Positions 18,681 to 31,077 of a stretch of 64,000 nucleotides of DNA are shown piece by piece. The translations under genes were made by a program, and so were the position numbers. Numbering within the stretch: position 1 is the stretch's first letter; every line of letters begins with the position of its first letter. Source of the DNA: Paenibacillus lutimineralis (GTDB taxonomy: Bacteria; Bacillota; Bacilli; Paenibacillales; Paenibacillaceae); NCBI RefSeq assembly GCF_003991425.1, contig NZ_CP034346.1, positions 4,687,501-4,751,500 of the forward strand, given 5' to 3'. The notes under the pieces are model-generated. The model had not been told where the DNA came from, made no database searches, and was given only the letters and a program-made list of their open reading frames with translations.

Positions 18681-21044
18681 TTATTTAAGCTCCGCCACCG
18701 TAACTCCTGTGCCGCCTTCTCCGTAATTTCCAAGACGGTAGCTCTTGATATGCTTATGTCTACGCAGATAGTCGGATATTCCGCTGCGCAGAATCCCGGT
18801 TCCTTTACCGTGGATAATATAGATTTGACCCAGATTGCTCAGGTACGCCTCATCAATAAAGCGATCTACCTCAATCAATGCCTCTTCCAGATTGGCTCCA
18901 CGCAGATCCAGCTCTGTCCGCACATGCTCATCCCGCGTACGCTTCACATTAGCTGCGGTTCGCTGAACCGGCTTCGTAACGGGAGCTGAACCAATCAGCT
19001 CGAGGTCATCAAGCGCAACCTTCATCTTCATAATTCCCAGCTGGACAAGTGCTTCCTTGTCGCCGGACAGCTCGACAACATGCCCCTTCTGATTCAGGCT
19101 GTGTACCTTCACCTCATCACCAGGCTGGATCGAGCGTTTTGGCTTGGCAGCCTTATGAGCTATAGACTTCTTACGCATCGCTGGCTCAGCTTCGTCAAGC
19201 TGCTTGCGGGCAGCGATCAGCTTATGCTCCTTCACCGAGGCTCCTTCTTCCATGGCAAGCAAGCGCAGCTCATCGATAATCTTCTCCGCTTCGCTGCGAG
19301 CCTTAGCGATAATCTCCCTCGCTTCCTCATCCGCCTTCTCTAGATAACGCTCCTTCTGCTGCTCCAGCTTCTCAAGCTCGGCCTCATGCTTACTGCGCAG
19401 GCCTTCCATTTCCTTGCGTAGTTTCTCAGCGTTCTCACGCTCTTGCTCAGCGATATTCCGATTCTCTTCGAGCTTGGCAATCATATTCTCCACCCGAAGG
19501 TCTTCTTCCTTAACTTCACCCCGGGCGAATTCAAGAATCGGAGCCGGAAGCCCGAGCCGCTCAGCTATTGCAAATGCATTACTTCGGCCAGGTACACCTA
19601 CCAGCAAGCGATAGGTTGGGCTCAATGTATTGATATCAAACTCCATGCTGGCATTGATGACACCCTTACGTTCATAGGCGTAAGCCTTAAGCTCGCTATA
19701 GTGTGTTGTCGCCACCATTCTGCAACCCAGCGAATGTATATGCTCCAATATCGCGATCGCCAATGCCGAGCCTTCAGCAGGATCCGTCCCCGCCCCAACC
19801 TCGTCGAGTAGAACAAGGCTCTTCGGCGTCATATTTTTCAGAATGGAGATGATGTTCGTCATATGGCTGGAGAAGGTACTCAGGCTCTGCTCAATACTCT
19901 GCTCATCGCCGATATCCGCATAGATTGCGTCAAACACACATAATTGACAGCCTTCTTCAACCGGAACGAACAATCCGGACATCGCCATCAAGCTGAGCAG
20001 ACCGATCGTCTTCAGCGTAACCGTCTTACCGCCCGTGTTAGGACCGGTGACGATAATCGTCGAGAAGTGATTGCCGAGCTCAACGTCAATCGGTACGACC
20101 TGGTCGATCGAGATGAGTGGATGGCGTCCTCTCCGCAGCTTAATGAAGCCGCGGTCATTCATTCGCGGCAGCGTGGCCTTCATCTCGCGCGCCAGACGTG
20201 CCTTGGCGAACATAAAATCAAGCTGGGCCAGAATATCGATATCATATATCAGAAGTTCCGCCTGCTCACCTACAAGCGCAGTTAGTTTCTGCAGTATAAC
20301 CTCGATCTCCCGCTCCTCGCGTAGCTTCGTCTCACGCAGCTTATTATTCATCGCGACAATCGACTCCGGTTCAATGAACAGGGTCGCCCCTGAGCCGGAC
20401 TGATCGTGTACGATTCCGCCAAAATGCGAACGGTATTCCGCTTTAACGGGAATAACAAAACGATCACCGCGAATCGTAACGATCTGATCCTGCAGCATCT
20501 TCGACACCGTTGACGAACGAATCATCGAATCCAGCTTCTCACGGATCCGTACTTCTCCACCACGAAGTTCACGGCGAATTTGCGACAACTCCGCACTTGC
20601 CGAGTCCATAATTTCCGCACTGTCATCCACACAGCGTTTGATTGCATCCTCTAACGGCTTCTGCTCACTTAAGGAATCGCTCAGTGTAAATAATATTTCC
20701 ACCGGATTATCCTCATGCACTGCAGACAGGTAGCGTTTGATCCGTCTTGAACCTTCAAGCGTTGTCGCAATTCCTAGAAGTTCGTGAGGATTCAGCGTAC
20801 CGCCAATGCGGGCTCGTCTAACAGCCGACGTTATATCTACAACTCCCCCGAAGGAAGGATAACCCTTGAGCCGGTCAACGGTAAACGATTCCTCCGTCCC
20901 CTGCAGCAACAATTTCACATCTTCCAAGCGTGTCACTGGCTGTAATTCCTCTGCCATTTGCTTGCCTAGTGAGGTCTGCGTATAACGGGCTAAATGATTT
21001 ATAATTTTTGGATATTCCATCGTATGCAGTATTTTCTGATCCAA
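18681..21044 (-). CDS. mutS2: MutS2, DNA/ribosome-associated ATPase with Smr nuclease domain
   Basis: A protein of 787 residues. It has the MutS core and ATPase with Walker A GPNTGGKT at 334-341 and Walker B in VLLDEVGAGTDP. A long coiled coil (about 510-620) and a C-terminal Smr domain (about 712-787, LDLRGANLEEALIEVDRF and IIHGKGTGILR) follow. It lacks the mismatch-binding domain of MutS1. Known roles of MutS2 are suppression of homologous recombination and rescue of collided ribosomes. In B. subtilis mutS2 lies in the pheST-zapA neighbourhood; the same is seen here with two plus-strand genes in between. Confidence 0.96.
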   Translation of the reverse strand: MDQKILHTMEYPKIINHLARYTQTSLGKQMAEELQPVTRLEDVKLLLQGTEESFTVDRLKGYPSFGGVVDITSAVRRARIGGTLNPHELLGIATTLEGSRRIKRYLSAVHEDNPVEILFTLSDSLSEQKPLEDAIKRCVDDSAEIMDSASAELSQIRRELRGGEVRIREKLDSMIRSSTVSKMLQDQIVTIRGDRFVIPVKAEYRSHFGGIVHDQSGSGATLFIEPESIVAMNNKLRETKLREEREIEVILQKLTALVGEQAELLIYDIDILAQLDFMFAKARLAREMKATLPRMNDRGFIKLRRGRHPLISIDQVVPIDVELGNHFSTIIVTGPNTGGKTVTLKTIGLLSLMAMSGLFVPVEEGCQLCVFDAIYADIGDEQSIEQSLSTFSSHMTNIISILKNMTPKSLVLLDEVGAGTDPAEGSALAIAILEHIHSLGCRMVATTHYSELKAYAYERKGVINASMEFDINTLSPTYRLLVGVPGRSNAFAIAERLGLPAPILEFARGEVKEEDLRVENMIAKLEENRNIAEQERENAEKLRKEMEGLRSKHEAELEKLEQQKERYLEKADEEAREIIAKARSEAEKIIDELRLLAMEEGASVKEHKLIAARKQLDEAEPAMRKKSIAHKAAKPKRSIQPGDEVKVHSLNQKGHVVELSGDKEALVQLGIMKMKVALDDLELIGSAPVTKPVQRTAANVKRTRDEHVRTELDLRGANLEEALIEVDRFIDEAYLSNLGQIYIIHGKGTGILRSGISDYLRRHKHIKSYRLGNYGEGGTGVTVAELK

Positions 21045-21208: not shown

Positions 21209-21571
21209 GTGCATTTTCTTGGGCATGTTGTCCGTTTTATCGTCTCCGCCCTGGTACTGCTGGTTGTGGGCTGGCTCGTTCCACAATTCAGTGTAGGTGG
21301 GTTCTGGAGCGCTCTTGTGCTCGCTCTTGTAATTGCCTTATTGGGTTGGGCCATTGAGGGCATATTCGGCAAGAAGGTTACTCCATTTGGACGCGGCATC
21401 GTCGGTTTTCTGGCCAGTGCACTCGTGATCTGGCTCGCTCAATTCGTCGTATCCGGTGTCTCGGTGTCTGTAATCGGCGCCTTACTGGCGGCACTAGTGA
21501 TCGGGATTATCGACTTGTTCATCCCCGTATCTACGCCCTTTGAGGCAGGCCGAGATAATGGCTCTCGATAA
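21209..21571 (+). CDS. YvlD-like small membrane protein (phage-holin-like family)
   Basis: A protein of 120 residues with about four hydrophobic helices and the motif WAIEGIFGKKVTPFGRGIVG typical of the PF04020/YvlD family. GTG start at 21209 with AAAGGAGG about 8 nt upstream. The family name refers to holins, but chromosomal members are not known to lyse cells. In B. subtilis yvlD belongs to an envelope-stress operon; no such partners are here. It is divergent from mutS2 and followed by a terminator. Confidence 0.8.
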   Translation: MHFLGHVVRFIVSALVLLVVGWLVPQFSVGGFWSALVLALVIALLGWAIEGIFGKKVTPFGRGIVGFLASALVIWLAQFVVSGVSVSVIGALLAALVIGIIDLFIPVSTPFEAGRDNGSR

Positions 21572-21652: not shown

Positions 21653-21808
21653 ATGGACTCATATTTCACGATTACATTCACATATGAAAATCTGAGAAAT
21701 ATGGAAAATGTTCACTAATTATTCATACCGTCCCCCTCTTTTGATTGAAAACCTGCGCTATAATATTCTTAAATTTGTCACAATAATACTATATTGCAGG
21801 TGATGATT

Positions 21809-22180
21809 ATGAAGAAGACTATTGCATTTATGGCTACATCTGTGTTATTGCTCGTCTTGGCTGCTTGTGGCAGCGGTTCCAATACCAGTTCCGAAAATAA
21901 CAACATTACACCAGAAGCCGAGCTCACGATCGAAGCGACCGATTATCAATTCGATCAGCCTGAGTACCACTTGAAGAAGGGCGTTCCGGTGAAGATCACT
22001 TTCAAGAGCAAGGAAGGCAATCATGGGATGCTCGTGCCTGGACTTAAGCTGCAGTTAAGCGGCAAGAGCCAGTCCAAGACGATCATCCCAGAGGAAGCCG
22101 GGGAATTTGAATTGGCCTGCTCCATTATGTGCGGAACCGGACATTCAACCATGATCTCCAAAATTATTGTAGAAGAATAA
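21809..22180 (+). CDS. CuA-type cupredoxin lipoprotein
   Basis: A protein of 123 residues. It has a lipoprotein signal with lipobox LAAC near residue 20, then a Ser/Asn linker and a cupredoxin domain. The C-terminal CSIMCGTGHSTM has the C-x3-C-x3-H-x2-M spacing of the binuclear CuA site of cytochrome oxidase subunit II, and a candidate first His lies in GNHGML. It lacks the subunit II membrane hairpin. It may carry electrons or deliver copper on the outer membrane face. The start at 21809 uses AGGTGATG. No oxidase genes are nearby. Confidence 0.82.
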   Translation: MKKTIAFMATSVLLLVLAACGSGSNTSSENNNITPEAELTIEATDYQFDQPEYHLKKGVPVKITFKSKEGNHGMLVPGLKLQLSGKSQSKTIIPEEAGEFELACSIMCGTGHSTMISKIIVEE

Positions 22181-22270: not shown

Positions 22271-24481
22271 CTAGTTATTATCCTGCTCGATCAATTCAAT
22301 CCACTCGTCATACTCTGTCTGCAGCTTCGCATAATCTTCCTTCAGCCGCCTATATTCCTGCTCAAGCTTCTGCGTATTCTCTTGGTCCAGTTCCTTGGCT
22401 GATTTTAACAGATGATACTCATGCGACACAATTTCGTAGCCTTCAGTAATTTGCCGAAGCTGCTCTGACATCTGCCCCTTCTCCTGCTGCAACGCATCGT
22501 ACTGCTCGTTCAGGTCCTCGACCTTCTCCGAGCTGGCCGCGCATTCCTGCTGCCATGTATTCAATTGTCGCTGCAAATCCGCCTCGATCTCCCGCCAAGA
22601 AGCCAGTTCCTGCTCTGCTGAAGCCAACTGGGTCCTCCAGGCCTGCTCCTGCTGCTCGGCATCCTTGCGTGCCTGTTCTTGCTCTTCCGCAAGCTGGGCG
22701 TAACCTTTGGCTTCTTCCTCTAAGGAACAAATACGATCACCTAGACTTTGAACCATCTCATTCAATCGGCTCTTCTCCGCTTCACTTGCTTCTGCAAGCT
22801 GAGCATAGCCCCCGGACTCCTCTCTCAGCTCCCGAATACGTTCATCCAGACTCTGAATCTCCGTTTGGAGCTGCTCTTTCTCGGCTTCACTAGCCTCAAC
22901 GAGCTGAGCGTACTCCCGGGACTCTTCTTGCAATTTCTGAATCTTCTCACCAAGACTCTCAATCTTCTCACTCAAGCGCTTCTTCTCGGCTTCACTTGCT
23001 TCCACAAGCTGGGCATGGACCCCAGTCTCTTCCTTCAGCCCACGAATACGTTCTTCAAGGTTTTGTACTTCCACTTGCAAATGGTTCTTCTCGGCTTCAC
23101 TCGTTTCTGCAAGCAGAGCATAGTCTTGTGACTCCTCCTGAAGAATCCGGATCCGATCTTCAAGATTATGGACTTTCTTCCGCAGCTGTTCATTCTCTGC
23201 TTCGCCAGATTCTACAAGCTGATCATAGTTCTTAGCCTCTTCTTCCATACCTTGAATGCGATCGACAAGACTTTGAATCTCATTTTGCAGACGATTCTTC
23301 TCTACTTCGCTCGCTTCCGCAAGCTGAGCGTAGCCCTTGGACTCTTCTGCCAGCTCACTTATACGTTCACCCATACTTTGAATCTCTTCTTGCAAACGGT
23401 TCTTCTCCGCCTCGCTCGCTTCCGCTTTCATAATAGCGGTTCCTCGATCCGACAGCGCTTGCTTCAATTTAATACGCAACTCTTCCAATTCACCAGCAGT
23501 CCGCTTAAGCTTGTCCTGTTCAACCTGCAGACCTTGGCGAGCGGCATTCGCTTCCTTCGTTGCGAATTGTAGCTGCTGCTCGTTCTTCTCTAGCTCTTCG
23601 GATACCGCGAGTATCTTCGTCTCGAGACCACTCAGCTCCTCATTACGTTTCTCAGCCAGCTTCTGCCACGATTTCTCATTCTGCAGGACGCCATCTAATT
23701 CGGAGCGGAGCTTGTTCTCCCTTTCATTCGCTTCCTGCACATGCTGCTGCAGCTTCTTGGTCTCTGCTTCTGCACTCTGTAGCGATTCCTGCAGACCTTT
23801 CTTCTGCATCTCCAGTTTATCCACGTTTACTTTCAACTGTTGTCCATCAGCCTTAGCTGCTTCTTCACGCTGCTGCACAGCCTTCAATTGAGCGCTAAGC
23901 TTGTCGTGCTCGCTCTTCTCCCGCTGTACATTTTGTTCTGAAGCACGTAGCTTATTCTGCAGTTGAGTGTTACTGTTCCGCTGTTCGCTCAGCTGACGTT
24001 CCAGTTCCTGCACTTTGTTCTTGTGCCTCAGGTTCTCGGCCTCTTGTTCCTTGGCCTGCTTAGAACTTTCAGCTTCATGCTGTTTGAACGTTGCTTCGGT
24101 AGCCGTGAGCTTGTCAGACAACGCCTTCCTGTCGTCCTTCAAATTGCCATACTCCTCCTGAAGCTTGGCATATTGCTCTTCTTGCTTGCCATTTAACGTC
24201 TTCAGCACTTCAAGCTCCTGAATGATGGACGCCTTCTCCTGCTGCAAGCTCTTCAATTCACCTTCAAGCTGATTGACTCTGGCAGCCTCTTCTGTCATCC
24301 GAACAGCAGTCAGCACCGCTAGACGAGGAGTATCCAAATGTGAATACGCCTTGGAAATGGAACGCATCTGCTCGTCCACTCGCTTAGCGATCTGTTTCAT
24401 ATACGCTTCATTACTGCCAACAATTTTATAAGAAGTACCGTAAATATCTACGTTTACACTAATTCGGTCAGGGGTATTCAA
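22271..24481 (-). CDS. zapA: ZapA fused to a very long coiled coil with seven 35-residue repeats
   Basis: A protein of 736 residues. The first 70 match ZapA, the FtsZ-ring stabiliser: RISVNVDIYGTSYKIVGSNE, then the KQIAKRVDEQMR helix and PRLAVLTAVRMTEE. The rest is a nearly unbroken Glu/Gln/Lys/Leu-rich coiled coil. Residues 353-597 are seven contiguous 35-residue units of the type AEASEAEKNRLQEEIQSMGE. A typical ZapA has fewer than 100 residues, so this one is extended about eightfold. TTG at 24481 has AAAGGAGG 8 nt upstream; a frame to 24550 would include the ribosome site. The position directly after pheT matches the Bacillus order. A role in the divisome is inferred from the ZapA domain; the extension's role is unknown. 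Confidence 0.85.
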   Translation of the reverse strand: MNTPDRISVNVDIYGTSYKIVGSNEAYMKQIAKRVDEQMRSISKAYSHLDTPRLAVLTAVRMTEEAARVNQLEGELKSLQQEKASIIQELEVLKTLNGKQEEQYAKLQEEYGNLKDDRKALSDKLTATEATFKQHEAESSKQAKEQEAENLRHKNKVQELERQLSEQRNSNTQLQNKLRASEQNVQREKSEHDKLSAQLKAVQQREEAAKADGQQLKVNVDKLEMQKKGLQESLQSAEAETKKLQQHVQEANERENKLRSELDGVLQNEKSWQKLAEKRNEELSGLETKILAVSEELEKNEQQLQFATKEANAARQGLQVEQDKLKRTAGELEELRIKLKQALSDRGTAIMKAEASEAEKNRLQEEIQSMGERISELAEESKGYAQLAEASEVEKNRLQNEIQSLVDRIQGMEEEAKNYDQLVESGEAENEQLRKKVHNLEDRIRILQEESQDYALLAETSEAEKNHLQVEVQNLEERIRGLKEETGVHAQLVEASEAEKKRLSEKIESLGEKIQKLQEESREYAQLVEASEAEKEQLQTEIQSLDERIRELREESGGYAQLAEASEAEKSRLNEMVQSLGDRICSLEEEAKGYAQLAEEQEQARKDAEQQEQAWRTQLASAEQELASWREIEADLQRQLNTWQQECAASSEKVEDLNEQYDALQQEKGQMSEQLRQITEGYEIVSHEYHLLKSAKELDQENTQKLEQEYRRLKEDYAKLQTEYDEWIELIEQDNN
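22691..23425 (-). repeat. Seven tandem 105-bp coding repeats inside zapA
   Basis: Each unit encodes 35 residues (five heptads). Conserved anchors are EASEAEK at the unit start and EES-x-YAQL at its end. Units differ at the DNA level, so the array is not a recent amplification. Units read on the minus strand from 23425 down to 22691, followed by a broken eighth unit. Confidence 0.9.
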
Positions 24482-24542
24482 ACTTTGTGCCTCCTTTATT
24501 GCGCTTTGTTCTAGGTGTCTGAAATATGCATTTTTTTGCACG

Positions 24543-24600: not shown

Positions 24601-27051
24601 CTATTTTCTTAATTCAGCTGCAAAAGTTTGCTCAAGTGCATTGACCACAGATCCATGAACTGCAGTGATCTCCTCATCCGTCAATGTCCGTTCCTTGTTG
24701 CGGTATACGAGAGACAAGGCCACACTCTTCTTGTCTTCTCCCAGCTTACTGTCGATGAATATATCGAATACCTCAACGGATTCCAGCAATTCGCCTGCGT
24801 TCTGACGGATCGTCCCGATCAAATCTCCGGCCTGAACTTCCTGGCCAACCACAACAGCGATATCACGCTGCATCGAAGGGAAACGCGGTAAATCACTATA
24901 TGCTACCGTTGCTCCTGCATAGCGGTAGATCGGTTCAAGTAACAATTCTGCTGCATACGTATCCACTAGCTCTATTTCACGCTGAAGATCTGGATGAAGC
25001 TGTCCTATGGTACCGATCCATAGCTTGCCTTCCGGTGTATCGAGATACATAGAGGCAGAACGTCCCGGATGGAATCCAACTGGCTTGTTCGCTTCATAAA
25101 AGACTTTTTCGCTTAACCCCAGCGCTTCAAACACACTTTCCAGCGCTCCCTTGATATCGAAGAAGTCCACCTTCTCCGCAGGCATATTCCAGCGCTTCTC
25201 GCCACGATTTCCAGTCAGCAACATTCCGAGCAGAGGCAACTCTTGTGGTTGCTTCGTCAGCTTCTCTTCTGTAGATAGGAACCCATTACCGATCTCGAAC
25301 AATGCCAGATTATCCTGCTTGTGTTTGCGGTTATATGCCGCGATCTCAGTAAGTCCTGGCAGCAGGCTGCTGCGCAACACGCCCCGTTCCTCACTCATCG
25401 GCATTGCCAACTTCACTTCATATTCTCCTGCACCCAGACGCGGGAACAGCTTAATACTGCCTTCCTTCACGAAGGAATAGCCCATCGCCTCCTGCCAACC
25501 GCCATGTACCAGCAGTTTGCGCAAGGAACGACGTAGAGCCTGCGACTTCGTATATCCGCCAGCAGTTGTCGGCCCTTCTATTACTGTAGTAGGGATGTTG
25601 TCATATCCGTATATGCGGGCAACTTCTTCGATCAAATCGACATCACGGGTAATATCCCCGCGGCGTGTAGGTACGCGCACTTCAATGGTATTATCGGCCA
25701 TATCTCCACAATCAAAATGCAATCTGCTCAGGATCGTCTTCGTCTCAAGCGTTGAAATATCCGTTCCAAGGAAAGAATTCAATTTGCTAAGTGATAGAGA
25801 AATGATATTCTCCTGCGGTTGTTTGACAACTGTCTCCACTACGCCTTGATGAACACTGCCAGAAGCATGCTTCATCATAAGTCCTGCCGCCCGGTTCAGG
25901 GCCGGAATTACAGAGTTCGGATCAACCACTTTCTCAAAACGCAAGGATGCCTCAGAACGTAGTCCCAGATGACGGGATGTAATCCGTACCGAGCTGCCGC
26001 TGAATTTGGCCGATTCCAGCACAATATTCGTCGTCTGCTCAGTTACTTCCGAGTTAAGGCCACCCATAACTCCGGCGAGAGCGATCGGGTTATCCTCTCC
26101 GTCCACGATCAAGAGCGTTCCCGCCTCCAACTTGCGCTCCTGCCCATCCAGTGTAACCAGGCTCTCATCTGAGCTAGCCTCGCGCACACCGATCACACCG
26201 CCGGCAATCTTGTCAGCATCGAAAGCGTGCAGAGGTTGACCATATTCCAGCATAACGTAGTTCGTGATATCAACGATATTGTTGATCGGGCGAACCCCCG
26301 CAGCCATCAGACGATTCTGCATCCAGAGCGGCGAAGGAGCGATCTTAACGCCTGTGATATAACGAACTGCATAGTGGTCGCACAATGCCGATGCATCGAT
26401 CTTCACAGCGACATAATCATTAGCTGGCTTCTGTACTTCTACCAAATCCTTCTCCGGCGTTGGTAGCTTAACTTCTCTTCCGAGAATCGCACCCACTTCG
26501 TATGCCGCGCCCAGCATACTTAAGCAATCGGAACGATTCGGCGTTAAATCGAAGTCCAGAATTTGATCGTCAAGTCCAAGCAGGTTCGTGATCGGCGTGC
26601 CGATCTCAACTTGCTCTGGCAGCACGAGAATTCCTTCCTGCTGATCCTTCGGCAGTAGCTTGTCATTCAGCCCCAGCTCTTTAGCGGAGCAAATCATGCC
26701 ATGGGAAGGAACACCACGCAGCTTCGCCTTCTTGATCTTCAATCCACCTGGCAGCTCAGCGCCCACAAGCGCTACGGCAACCTTCTGGCCAGCGTCAACA
26801 TTTTTGGCTCCGCAGACGATCTGCAAATCCTCGTCCTCGCCAGCATCTACTGTACACACGTTCAGCTTGTCAGCATCCGGGTGCTTCTCCTTATGCTTGA
26901 CATAACCGACAACAACCTTAGTCACACCTTTGTTGCGGTTCTCGATCGAATCAATCTCAATGCCCGAGCGTGTAATTTGCTCTGCGAGCTCAGTAATATC
27001 TACATTTTCAAGCGATACATATTTAGATAACCATTCGGCTGATACTTTCAT
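24601..27051 (-). CDS. pheT: Phenylalanyl-tRNA synthetase beta subunit
   Basis: A protein of 816 residues, the usual bacterial length. N-terminal EMAP-like tRNA-binding domain (about 40-150, with KHPDADKLNVCTVD), B3/B4 editing domain, B5 domain (about 400-480), core domain, and a C-terminal ferredoxin-fold anticodon-binding domain (RFPSMQRDIAVVV). It works as an alpha2-beta2 tetramer with PheS. The ATG has a GGGGAAAG site; the gap to pheS is 21 nt, so the two are one operon under the T-box. Confidence 0.97.
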   Translation of the reverse strand: MKVSAEWLSKYVSLENVDITELAEQITRSGIEIDSIENRNKGVTKVVVGYVKHKEKHPDADKLNVCTVDAGEDEDLQIVCGAKNVDAGQKVAVALVGAELPGGLKIKKAKLRGVPSHGMICSAKELGLNDKLLPKDQQEGILVLPEQVEIGTPITNLLGLDDQILDFDLTPNRSDCLSMLGAAYEVGAILGREVKLPTPEKDLVEVQKPANDYVAVKIDASALCDHYAVRYITGVKIAPSPLWMQNRLMAAGVRPINNIVDITNYVMLEYGQPLHAFDADKIAGGVIGVREASSDESLVTLDGQERKLEAGTLLIVDGEDNPIALAGVMGGLNSEVTEQTTNIVLESAKFSGSSVRITSRHLGLRSEASLRFEKVVDPNSVIPALNRAAGLMMKHASGSVHQGVVETVVKQPQENIISLSLSKLNSFLGTDISTLETKTILSRLHFDCGDMADNTIEVRVPTRRGDITRDVDLIEEVARIYGYDNIPTTVIEGPTTAGGYTKSQALRRSLRKLLVHGGWQEAMGYSFVKEGSIKLFPRLGAGEYEVKLAMPMSEERGVLRSSLLPGLTEIAAYNRKHKQDNLALFEIGNGFLSTEEKLTKQPQELPLLGMLLTGNRGEKRWNMPAEKVDFFDIKGALESVFEALGLSEKVFYEANKPVGFHPGRSASMYLDTPEGKLWIGTIGQLHPDLQREIELVDTYAAELLLEPIYRYAGATVAYSDLPRFPSMQRDIAVVVGQEVQAGDLIGTIRQNAGELLESVEVFDIFIDSKLGEDKKSVALSLVYRNKERTLTDEEITAVHGSVVNALEQTFAAELRK

Positions 27052-28958: not shown

Positions 28959-28990
28959 AAAAAAGCTCCTAGCCGGCAAGCCGACTAAGG
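28959..28990 (-). terminator. Terminator overlapping the end of the GGDEF-EAL gene
   Basis: The last codons and stop (CGGCTTGCCGGCTAG) form the stem, followed by AGCTTTTTT on the minus strand. Confidence 0.7.
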
Positions 28991-31077
28991 AACTCATTCT
29001 CAAATACGCCTGCAGGAACAGGCTTACTGAACAGGAAGCCCTGCCCCTCATGGCAGTTCTGCTGCTTTAGAAACTCAAGCTGCTCCTCGCTCTCGACCCC
29101 TTCGGCCGTCACTTTGAGCTGCAGATGGTGTGCCATTGTCGTAATTGTAGATACGATGGCGGCATCATTTCCATCCAACATTAGCTCCTGTACGAAGGCT
29201 CGGTCAATCTTCAAGCGGTCAATGGGTAGGCTCTTCAAATAGTAGAGCGAGCTATATCCTGTTCCAAAATCATCGATACTAATATGTATTCCGAGCTGCT
29301 TCAAGCTGTATAACTGGCTTAACGCCGTCTCAATATCATAGGTCATACTCTCCGTAACCTCAAGCTCCAGATACTTCGCTTCCATTCCAACTTCCTTTAG
29401 GATCGCTCCCACCCTCTCAGCCAGGTTATATTGACGGAATTGGCGCATCGAGAGATTGACAGAGATACATATTGGCGGATAACCAGCTAATTGCCAGTTC
29501 TTATTATACTGACAGGCTGTCCTTAATACCCACTCTCCAAGTTGAACGATCAAGCCGCTATCCTCAGCGATCGGAATGAATTCCCCTGGTGAAATGATCC
29601 CACGCTTCGGATGTCTCCACCGCACTAGCGCTTCCATTCCTACCATCTGATTGGTCTGCAGACTGAATTGCGGCTGAAACTCCAGGAAGAATTGCTCCTG
29701 ATCTAGCGCCTTGCGCATATCGTTCTCCAATTCGATTCGGGCCTGGGTTACCAGCTTTAATTTATCAACGTAACGCGAAAATTCCTGCCCTTGATCCTTG
29801 GCATGATGAACAGCCATATCAGCGTATTGGATGACCTGCTCAACGGATGCTCCATCTGCAGGATAGACGGCTAAACCCATCGAAAGTGAGATGTGGTACT
29901 CTGTCTCATCGATAATGACGGATGGATTCACTGCATGAAGCAAGCATACTGCACGGCGTTCAGCCGCCTTTGCATCACCCACTTCGCCTAAAATGAGAGC
30001 AAATTCATCTTCTCCCATTCGGTAGACCTTCTCTGCACCCCGGCACACCTCTGACAGTCGTTCGCCTACCTCCGTAAGCACTTTGTCGCCAGCGCTATAA
30101 CCAAGAGAATCATTAATTGCCTTGAAGCGATCGATATTGATCACGGCAATACCGATACATGAAGCGCAAGAAAGGGCCGCTTGACCAAGCTCCTCCTTCA
30201 TCCGCCGCAAATTAGGTAATCCGGTCAGTTCATCATGATCGACCATATGCTTCATCAAAGCTTCAACAGCCTGTTGGCTACGGAACGGCTCTTCAATAGT
30301 AAGGCGGTATACTCCCTTCATCACAAAATAATAAGAGAGAACCATATACCATTCGCCGACAGCATGAAGCAAGCTAGCCTGCATGTCTACTAACATAAGC
30401 AGAATATGCCCCAGCAGCATGAACATCAACGCCTGAACCATCGTTATCGCTGCAGACGAGCTTGCCTTGCGCGATCGGCGAACCATGGATATCATCGCCA
30501 ATAAGATGATCGGCAGAGTAGCTATCCAAATTACCGAATTGCCGAGGCTGCGTCCGTTATACTCCAGCCATTCAGGGTGCTTCCATTGATATGTATATAA
30601 CAGTCCGATCCCGATCGCACTGACCAATGCACCACCGATAAAGGCCATAAATTTATGTTTGCCCAACACCTGCCTATCTTCTGTACAGAAAATAAACAGA
30701 ATCCCCAAAGCCCCAAGCAAATGCGAAATCGCAAGCAACGTATTCGATAAATGAAGCCCGGTCTCTATTCCGAACAGCTTAAGTCCGCTATATGCCGAAA
30801 TATGTAATACATCCAATAATCCGATTATGAAAAAGAGGACCGCGGTGTACAAACGCTGTCTAGACAGCTTGTCCGCAAACAAAATCCAGCCTTGAGCAAA
30901 AATCGCAAATGATATTGTTCCGATCACCAATCCGGCCAGGATCAATAATGCTCGCATGCTATCCGCGGAAATCCCCAAGCTGTCTAACCTAACGGATGCT
31001 ATAATGAAGGCCAGCATACCTGCCAATCCGATTCCTCCCTGGATTAAAGCTGTTCTTCTCTCTGTCCTTGTACCCAT
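28969..31077 (-). CDS. Membrane GGDEF-EAL protein, probable c-di-GMP phosphodiesterase
   Basis: A protein of 702 residues. Residues 1-260 form about eight membrane helices resembling a MASE-type sensor (HISAYSGLKLFG, then a helix rich in His and Leu). A GGDEF domain follows (DHDELTGLPNL at 280-290) with a changed active-site motif, GEDEF at 355-359. The EAL domain keeps its catalytic residues: EALVRW at 482, DDFGTGYSS at 602-610 and TAEGVE. I infer phosphodiesterase activity with the GGDEF domain inactive or regulatory. The Shine-Dalgarno is weak. It is a single gene. Confidence 0.88.
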   Translation of the reverse strand: MGTRTERRTALIQGGIGLAGMLAFIIASVRLDSLGISADSMRALLILAGLVIGTISFAIFAQGWILFADKLSRQRLYTAVLFFIIGLLDVLHISAYSGLKLFGIETGLHLSNTLLAISHLLGALGILFIFCTEDRQVLGKHKFMAFIGGALVSAIGIGLLYTYQWKHPEWLEYNGRSLGNSVIWIATLPIILLAMISMVRRSRKASSSAAITMVQALMFMLLGHILLMLVDMQASLLHAVGEWYMVLSYYFVMKGVYRLTIEEPFRSQQAVEALMKHMVDHDELTGLPNLRRMKEELGQAALSCASCIGIAVINIDRFKAINDSLGYSAGDKVLTEVGERLSEVCRGAEKVYRMGEDEFALILGEVGDAKAAERRAVCLLHAVNPSVIIDETEYHISLSMGLAVYPADGASVEQVIQYADMAVHHAKDQGQEFSRYVDKLKLVTQARIELENDMRKALDQEQFFLEFQPQFSLQTNQMVGMEALVRWRHPKRGIISPGEFIPIAEDSGLIVQLGEWVLRTACQYNKNWQLAGYPPICISVNLSMRQFRQYNLAERVGAILKEVGMEAKYLELEVTESMTYDIETALSQLYSLKQLGIHISIDDFGTGYSSLYYLKSLPIDRLKIDRAFVQELMLDGNDAAIVSTITTMAHHLQLKVTAEGVESEEQLEFLKQQNCHEGQGFLFSKPVPAGVFENEFLSRLAG

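Follow-up and report, generated by a model that had tools for sequence, protein, structure and literature searches.

The zapA gene of Paenibacillus lutimineralis encodes a protein of 736 residues in which a ZapA head is joined by a very long coiled-coil rod to a conserved C-terminal tip, an arrangement that is very probably designed as a two-ended spacer. ZapA is a widely conserved partner of FtsZ and is normally a small protein of about 90 residues. The sequence reads most naturally as that of a ZapA extended by a very long coiled coil, which would act as a bridge or tether over a long distance. Such long ZapA proteins are widespread in the order to which Paenibacillus belongs. The features of the gene and its neighbors in the window, that is, the whole 64,000-nucleotide stretch of DNA that was analyzed, are as follows.

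22271..24481, minus strand: zapA-long, 736 codons plus stop, TTG start
24490..24497, minus strand: Shine-Dalgarno sequence AAAGGAGG, 8 nt ahead of the TTG start of zapA-long
24272..24481, minus strand: ZapA head, residues 1-70 (Pfam match 9-90), from Pfam, the 2mmv match and a dN/dS of 0.03
23417..24271, minus strand: proximal coiled-coil rod, residues 71-355, from periodicity and dN/dS
24017..24049, minus strand: hendecad insertion of 11 residues (145-155) that the 515-aa relatives lack, from alignment
22682..23416, minus strand: seven tandem 35-residue (five-heptad) repeats, residues 356-600, from self-identity and alignment
22355..22681, minus strand: distal rod, residues 601-709, with many genus-conserved columns, from alignment and dN/dS
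22274..22354, minus strand: C-terminal tip, residues 710-736, containing KEDYAKLQTEYDEWIELIEQ, from motif conservation
24601..27051, minus strand: pheT, upstream neighbor of zapA-long, from context
18681..21044, minus strand: mutS2, downstream of zapA-long on the same strand, from context

The zapA locus and the ZapA head

The reading frame of zapA-long (22274-24481, minus strand) contains no internal stop, ends in a stop codon at 22271-22273 and yields a 736-residue product. The preliminary description had left room for separate genes or an internal start behind the long frame. Both seem unlikely, as the frame is uninterrupted here, no internal stop was found in 38 rows from the genus, and the head, the proximal rod and the tip all have a low dN/dS against two 736-aa relatives. 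The starts picked in 170 ZapA relatives are preceded by sequences matching AGGAGG at 4-6 of 6 positions, which is weak support for these starts because they were chosen by that very match.

A PheT match lies upstream of zapA and on the same strand at 80/80 named loci, at a median distance of 167 bases, and PheT matches were likewise found at 6/6 short-ZapA loci. MutS2 is on the zapA strand at 75/80 named loci. The stretch that separates zapA from mutS2 encodes, on the other strand, a phage-holin-superfamily-IV-like membrane protein (21209-21571, plus strand), with matches at 73/80 named loci, and a CoxB/cupredoxin-like protein (21794-22180, plus strand), with matches at 61/80, whose cupredoxin and CoxB matches are both below the curated cut-offs. 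A MASE3-GGDEF-EAL protein (28969-31077, minus strand) is encoded upstream of pheS.

The identity of the head is well defined. The Pfam ZapA domain (PF05164) spans residues 9-90 with a score of 44.6 bits (cut-off 23.8, E 1.8e-11), in agreement with the preliminary description, which took the N-terminal 70 residues for a normal ZapA domain. The best sequence match among solved structures is 2mmv, the Geobacillus ZapA (E 4.1e-8). When the model of a 149-aa relative was searched with Foldseek, 2mmv was found at E 1.1e-6 with a TM score of 0.75 over the target, and other ZapA structures ranked 2-11 (E 1.4e-3 to 1.8e-2). The protein is the sole ZapA over the cut-off in the 6.5 Mb genome, the second place being below it at E 0.9. 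The NCBIfam equivalog of short ZapA (PRK14126) matches residues 6-77 with 50.5 bits, which is under its cut-off of 80, and the protein is therefore not filed as an ordinary short ZapA. With the short ZapA proteins (PF05164; 28 distinct ones here, and the structures 2mmv, 4p1m of E. coli and 9isj of Klebsiella), it has the head domain and the place beside pheT in common. It differs in length (82-107 aa in the short proteins versus 736 in this one, with a maximum of 1,740 among relatives), in a tail that has moved far from the head, and in the Trp of its tip.

In profile searches, the rod resembles the coiled coils of SMC and Rad50, although the protein scores 77.5 bits against the SMC equivalog, for which the cut-off is 567. 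One source names a 513-aa relative from P. anaericanus (P0001) 'chromosome segregation ATPase' and another names it ZapA; the former name may stem from the likeness of the rod to SMC/Rad50. Because of such a label, long ZapA may have been easy to overlook. No description of it was found in the titles or abstract openings of the openly licensed literature on ZapA, Paenibacillus, EzrA and coiled-coil length, and searches of that literature for coiled-coil rod length and for Geobacillus ZapA found no paper.

Long ZapA across the order

Our counts of ZapA rest on genome searches because searches of protein databases gave just two relatives. It should be noted that the frame lengths in these genome searches run from stop to stop, lengths being confirmed for the fetched loci, that the fetched loci were chosen from the listed rows and are not a random sample, and that the named set overlaps the other set. 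ZapA was detected in 38/40 genomes of the genus, with frames of 510-922 aa, in 391/394 genomes of the family, covering all 19 genera, and in 89/89 genomes of the order, with frames of 129-1746 aa. The occurrence in the family and the order rules out a freak of one strain. Across the family, for which the preliminary description had proposed a comparison of zapA length, the frames measure 275-1616 aa among the matches listed. The two genomes of the genus without a ZapA match are G027 and G032, the latter rated 100% complete in 180 contigs.

The smaller families of the order have short or intermediate frames: 129 aa in f61, 179-196 in f67, 182-186 in f66, 222 in f62, 221 in f68, 238-425 in f64 and 306 in f63. 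Short and long forms also occur inside one family, with 164 and 699 aa in f65 and a range from 139 to 1746 in f2. In the class, ZapA was detected in 392/398 genomes, and its frames outside the order measure 81-219 aa among the matches listed. In the phylum, it was detected in 122/139 genomes, and none of the six outlying rows fetched (frames of 266-666 aa) is a coiled-coil-long ZapA. Two of these rows (L357 and L358, the ZapA of G824 and G940) have an open frame of 666 aa versus the 107 aa that are translated in the match frame, one with a frame of 286 reads 123 aa, and three are proline-rich (8-12%). One more row, of 205 aa, lies beyond the six examined.

The complete proteins of at least 440 aa comprise 150 distinct sequences of 459-1740 aa, or 200 with the named set, and the series of complete proteins analyzed here spans 138 to 1,740 aa. 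The closest named records, Paenibacillus sp. GM2 and D2_2, have head identities of 97 and 96%, and both are 736 aa long. In P. terrae and P. ottowii, ZapA has 674 aa. A record titled Neobacillus mesonae MER 107 (L309) carries a Paenibacillus-type ZapA of 975 aa and is probably mislabelled. A frameshift seems to interrupt zapA at L140, L147, L222, L266, L299, L300 and L330, where the tip follows further down in a different frame; these shifts are either real or assembly errors.

The rod and the selection acting on it

Residues 76-711 are free of proline and form about 640 residues of heptad coiled coil, close to the roughly 650 residues estimated in the preliminary description. Hydrophobicity along the rod has its peak at a period of 3.50 residues with a power of 10.2, the maximum in 1000 shuffles being 2.9. 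The heptad signal is weak in windows centered on residues 140 and 175, around an 11-residue insertion: compared with three relatives of 515-516 aa, the protein is longer by 11 residues following residue 143 or 144. Self-identity of the rod has maxima at lags of 35, 70 and 105, and the repeat array is longer than in the 515-aa relatives by 210 residues, or six 35-mers, which appear as a single block in two alignments and as 74 + 136 in the third. In 26 distinct proteins of the 515 class, which share the place of the tip motif and align without gaps, the heptad phase lies between -103 and -142 degrees in windows centered from residue 88 to residue 494. With a helix rise of 0.1485 nm per residue, residues 53-736 would measure 102 nm if fully helical, in line with the 90-100 nm suggested beforehand.

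Of the two predictions that had been proposed as a check, coiled-coil periodicity bore out the rod at 3.5 residues, but the AlphaFold2 model of it was poor, with a pTM of 0.23. This single-chain model has helix at 51-155, 212-415 and 501-735. Residues 156-211 and 416-500 are mostly without helix and of low confidence, with a pLDDT below 50 at 165-174, 180-186 and 418-497. The input alignment had 21 rows, few of them over the repeat array, and the helix breaks are taken as a weakness of the model. There may be a hinge near residues 150-200.

The rod is under purifying selection, with a dN/dS of about 0.08. Comparison with a first 736-aa relative (L124) gives dN/dS values of 0.03 for the head, 0.08 for the proximal rod, 0.19 for the repeat array, 0.08 for the distal rod and 0.07 for the tip. 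Against a second one (L125), it is 0.03, 0.08, 0.12, 0.03 and 0.02, respectively, in a comparison where dS reaches 2.1 and tip differences are few. Prolines are nearly absent from the long rods in general, with 17 in 121,178 residues and 138/150 rods without any. Indels in the rod tend to keep its register: 53/80 are 0 or 4 mod 7 (p 5e-12; 39 close pairs, picked greedily by identity rather than on a tree, with each protein used once), and 48/52 of those of 5-44 residues are sums of 7 and 11 (p 6e-13). It is important to note that repeat slippage has a share in this pattern and that the mod-7 enrichment is not pure evidence of selection, because slippage of tandem repeats alone gives multiples of seven.

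Rod length itself differs between lineages. On a PheT tree of 151 rows, which includes some genomes twice, the 98 distinct tip positions among the 146 rows with a rod length need 98 changes, and nearly every rod length therefore belongs to one clade. This diversity of length, together with the 35-residue tandem repeats, could reflect mere slippage that lengthens a weakly constrained coiled coil, giving a reach without function beyond that of an ordinary ZapA. Such a bloated linker is very improbable in our estimation, as the dN/dS is 0.08 in the rod and 0.12-0.19 even in the repeat array, proline is nearly absent, and the indels keep the register. The 515 class also argues against it, with 26 distinct proteins of identical reach in spite of pairwise rod identities down to 29% (median 50%). 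Rod length is shown to be evolvable, since relatives differ by units of 7, 11 or 35 residues, mostly in register and with both ends fixed.

A rule for two-stranded coiled coils is that their d positions are rich in Leu and their a positions mixed. This is the pattern of the rod, and it bears on whether two dimers might overlap along their full length as an antiparallel tetramer, tip against head, which would be shaped like a dumbbell, 100 nm long and with heads at either end. A study of short ZapA describes a dumbbell tetramer with a coiled-coil domain (PMC12216130), and both ends of the long protein are conserved, as a full overlap would lead one to expect. Nevertheless, we consider this arrangement unlikely, since the Leu-rich d and mixed a positions fit a two-stranded rod and since rod sequence and length vary strongly among relatives, which is hard to reconcile with a four-helix overlap over the full length.

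The tip and the division ring

The tip, with the consensus EYxKLQxEYNEWIEL[IL]E and recognized by the motif E[YFH][ND][ED]W[ILMTV], occurs once and within 30 residues of the end in 165 of the 170 complete distinct proteins of at least 110 aa, a count that excludes L043 and L099, where the wrong strand was read, and loci truncated at the edge of the contig or of the locus (L158, for example). Among the five exceptions, four have a frameshift that leaves the tip further down in a different frame, and the fifth, L195 with 123 aa, has no Trp. Of the proteins of the named set, 77/80 carry the tip, and the other three, from two genomes, likewise have it further down in a different frame. Position statistics were gathered on proteins selected with this motif, so that E-4 and the Trp are fixed and positions -3, -2, -1 and +1 restricted; they cover 146 of the 150 long proteins, the four that end four residues past the Trp being left out. 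Outside the search pattern, L-14 and L-7 are conserved at 100%, Y-10 at 97%, L+3 at 94%, Q-6 at 93%, and K-8 and Glu +5 at 92%. Within it, N is preferred over D at -2 in 98% and E over D at -1 in 99%. In the 515 class, one of the two core heptad positions is taken by the Trp and two Leu and the second by two Tyr, and the surface heptad positions of the tip are conserved as well as the core.

A tip-like segment is also found in short ZapA. The 34 short ZapA rows hold 28 distinct sequences, and a weight matrix of the tip places 18 of their tails above the 99% level of 2281 rod fragments and ten below. The segment follows directly on the core, near residues 56-60, and the best-scoring one, ADEYFKLQQEYEDLIKLIE, reaches 20.5 versus a rod maximum of -0.2. 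The tip is thus apparently the old ZapA tail, with a rod that would have grown between core and tail. This descent is uncertain because 10/28 short tails miss the 99% level, and the likeness could also have arisen by convergence.

The tail segment of short ZapA belongs to the tetramer-forming stalk. In E. coli, the coiled-coil substitution I83E turns ZapA into dimers that do not complement (PMC12216130, PMC7246612). If the tip keeps the tetramer role of the short ZapA stalk, the result would be a dumbbell with heads 100-200 nm apart. We regard as the best explanation overall, with an even chance of being right, a parallel dimer with its head on FtsZ and its tips paired tail to tail. From what is known of the ZapA family, the heads would dimerise and sit on FtsZ filaments. 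From the head, the helices would run side by side in parallel and form a single in-register coiled coil, which would measure about 100 nm in this protein and as much as 250 nm in relatives. At the tip, where Tyr, Leu and Trp occupy core positions, one dimer would pair tail to tail with another. Heads at both ends could then cross-link FtsZ filaments over some 100-200 nm, versus the short span of ordinary ZapA.

Self-association of the tip is favored over a separate partner on account of its likeness to the old ZapA tail, while the conservation of surface as well as core heptad positions would be explained equally well by a partner protein; we would call self-association about a coin-toss. The role of a partner is illustrated by systems in which ZapA and a coiled-coil protein link the Z ring to the chromosome, namely ZapA-ZapB-MatP of E. 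coli (PMC4388696) and ZapA-ZauP-ZapT of Caulobacter, where ZauP is described as the functional homologue of ZapB (PMC7188993). In both, the coiled coil is a separate protein, whereas in Paenibacillus it is part of ZapA; ZapB and ZauP were compared with the long ZapA by role only. A radial tether of this kind, with the head on FtsZ and the tip bound far down in the cytoplasm to a partner that may or may not be chromosome-associated, would have one protein do the job of ZapA plus ZapB (or ZauP) plus MatP (or ZapT), a possibility that we hold to be less likely than not. The tip residues K-8, Q-6, N-2 and E-1 are conserved outside the a/d core, as a partner-binding surface would be, and the layers of the E. 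coli system are on the scale of the rod, with ZapB placed about 40 nm to the inside of FtsZ and MatP about 30 nm deeper still (PMC4388696). However, no second tip-bearing protein was found in the genome itself, where the next matches are at E 0.46 and 1.97, although a partner of unrelated sequence would still be possible, and the same kind of segment ends the short ZapA proteins, whose stalk is known to serve in oligomerisation.

EzrA is a long helical regulator of the Z ring in Bacilli and in this respect is like the long ZapA. It differs in being membrane-anchored (PMC4113482) and built of linear triple-helical repeats (PMC4243239). The preliminary description had the long ZapA do a task performed in Bacillus by EzrA, SepF and GpsB. 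This found no support in the form stated, as SepF is present in the genome together with two proteins of the DivIVA family (frames of 219 and 140 aa, the second GpsB-sized), and EzrA alone went undetected: EzrA (PF06160) had no match in the genome at E 1e-3 and was not among the Pfam matches of the 736-aa protein. Among 29 relatives, 9 have weak EzrA matches at E 1e-3, and 2 of these matches (G758, G695) are over the cut-off. At E 1e-10, EzrA was detected in 50/81 genomes of the class, including one member of the family (G381). The proteins behind the matches in G758, G695 and G381 look like different membrane proteins, which we take to be TPM-domain-like. At L274, L275 and L276, large membrane proteins with EzrA-repeat matches have another, secreted-looking N-terminal domain, presumably TPM-like, and Gly/Ser-rich tails. 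Several other families of the class have no EzrA at E 1e-10 and yet a short ZapA. A replacement of EzrA by long ZapA thus finds no support as a general rule, and we do not claim it, because these EzrA-negative families keep ZapA short.

One precise required reach is argued against by lengths that span 138 to 1,740 aa. A tentative reading, which we hold to be possible though less than probable, is that the order has turned ZapA into an evolvable spacer with a rod of about 60-250 nm in the longer forms, so that the reach of a Z-ring cross-linker, from filament to filament or inward to the nucleoid, would be a tuned species trait, changed in heptad, hendecad and 35-residue steps, fixed within clades and different between them. 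More generally, a long rod between a ZapA head and a near-invariant tip suggests a long-reach spacer in the division ring. A ZapA of 5-20 times the normal length with both ends fixed provides a natural series of reach lengths, which could show which distance matters in division, that between FtsZ filaments or that from the Z ring to the chromosome.
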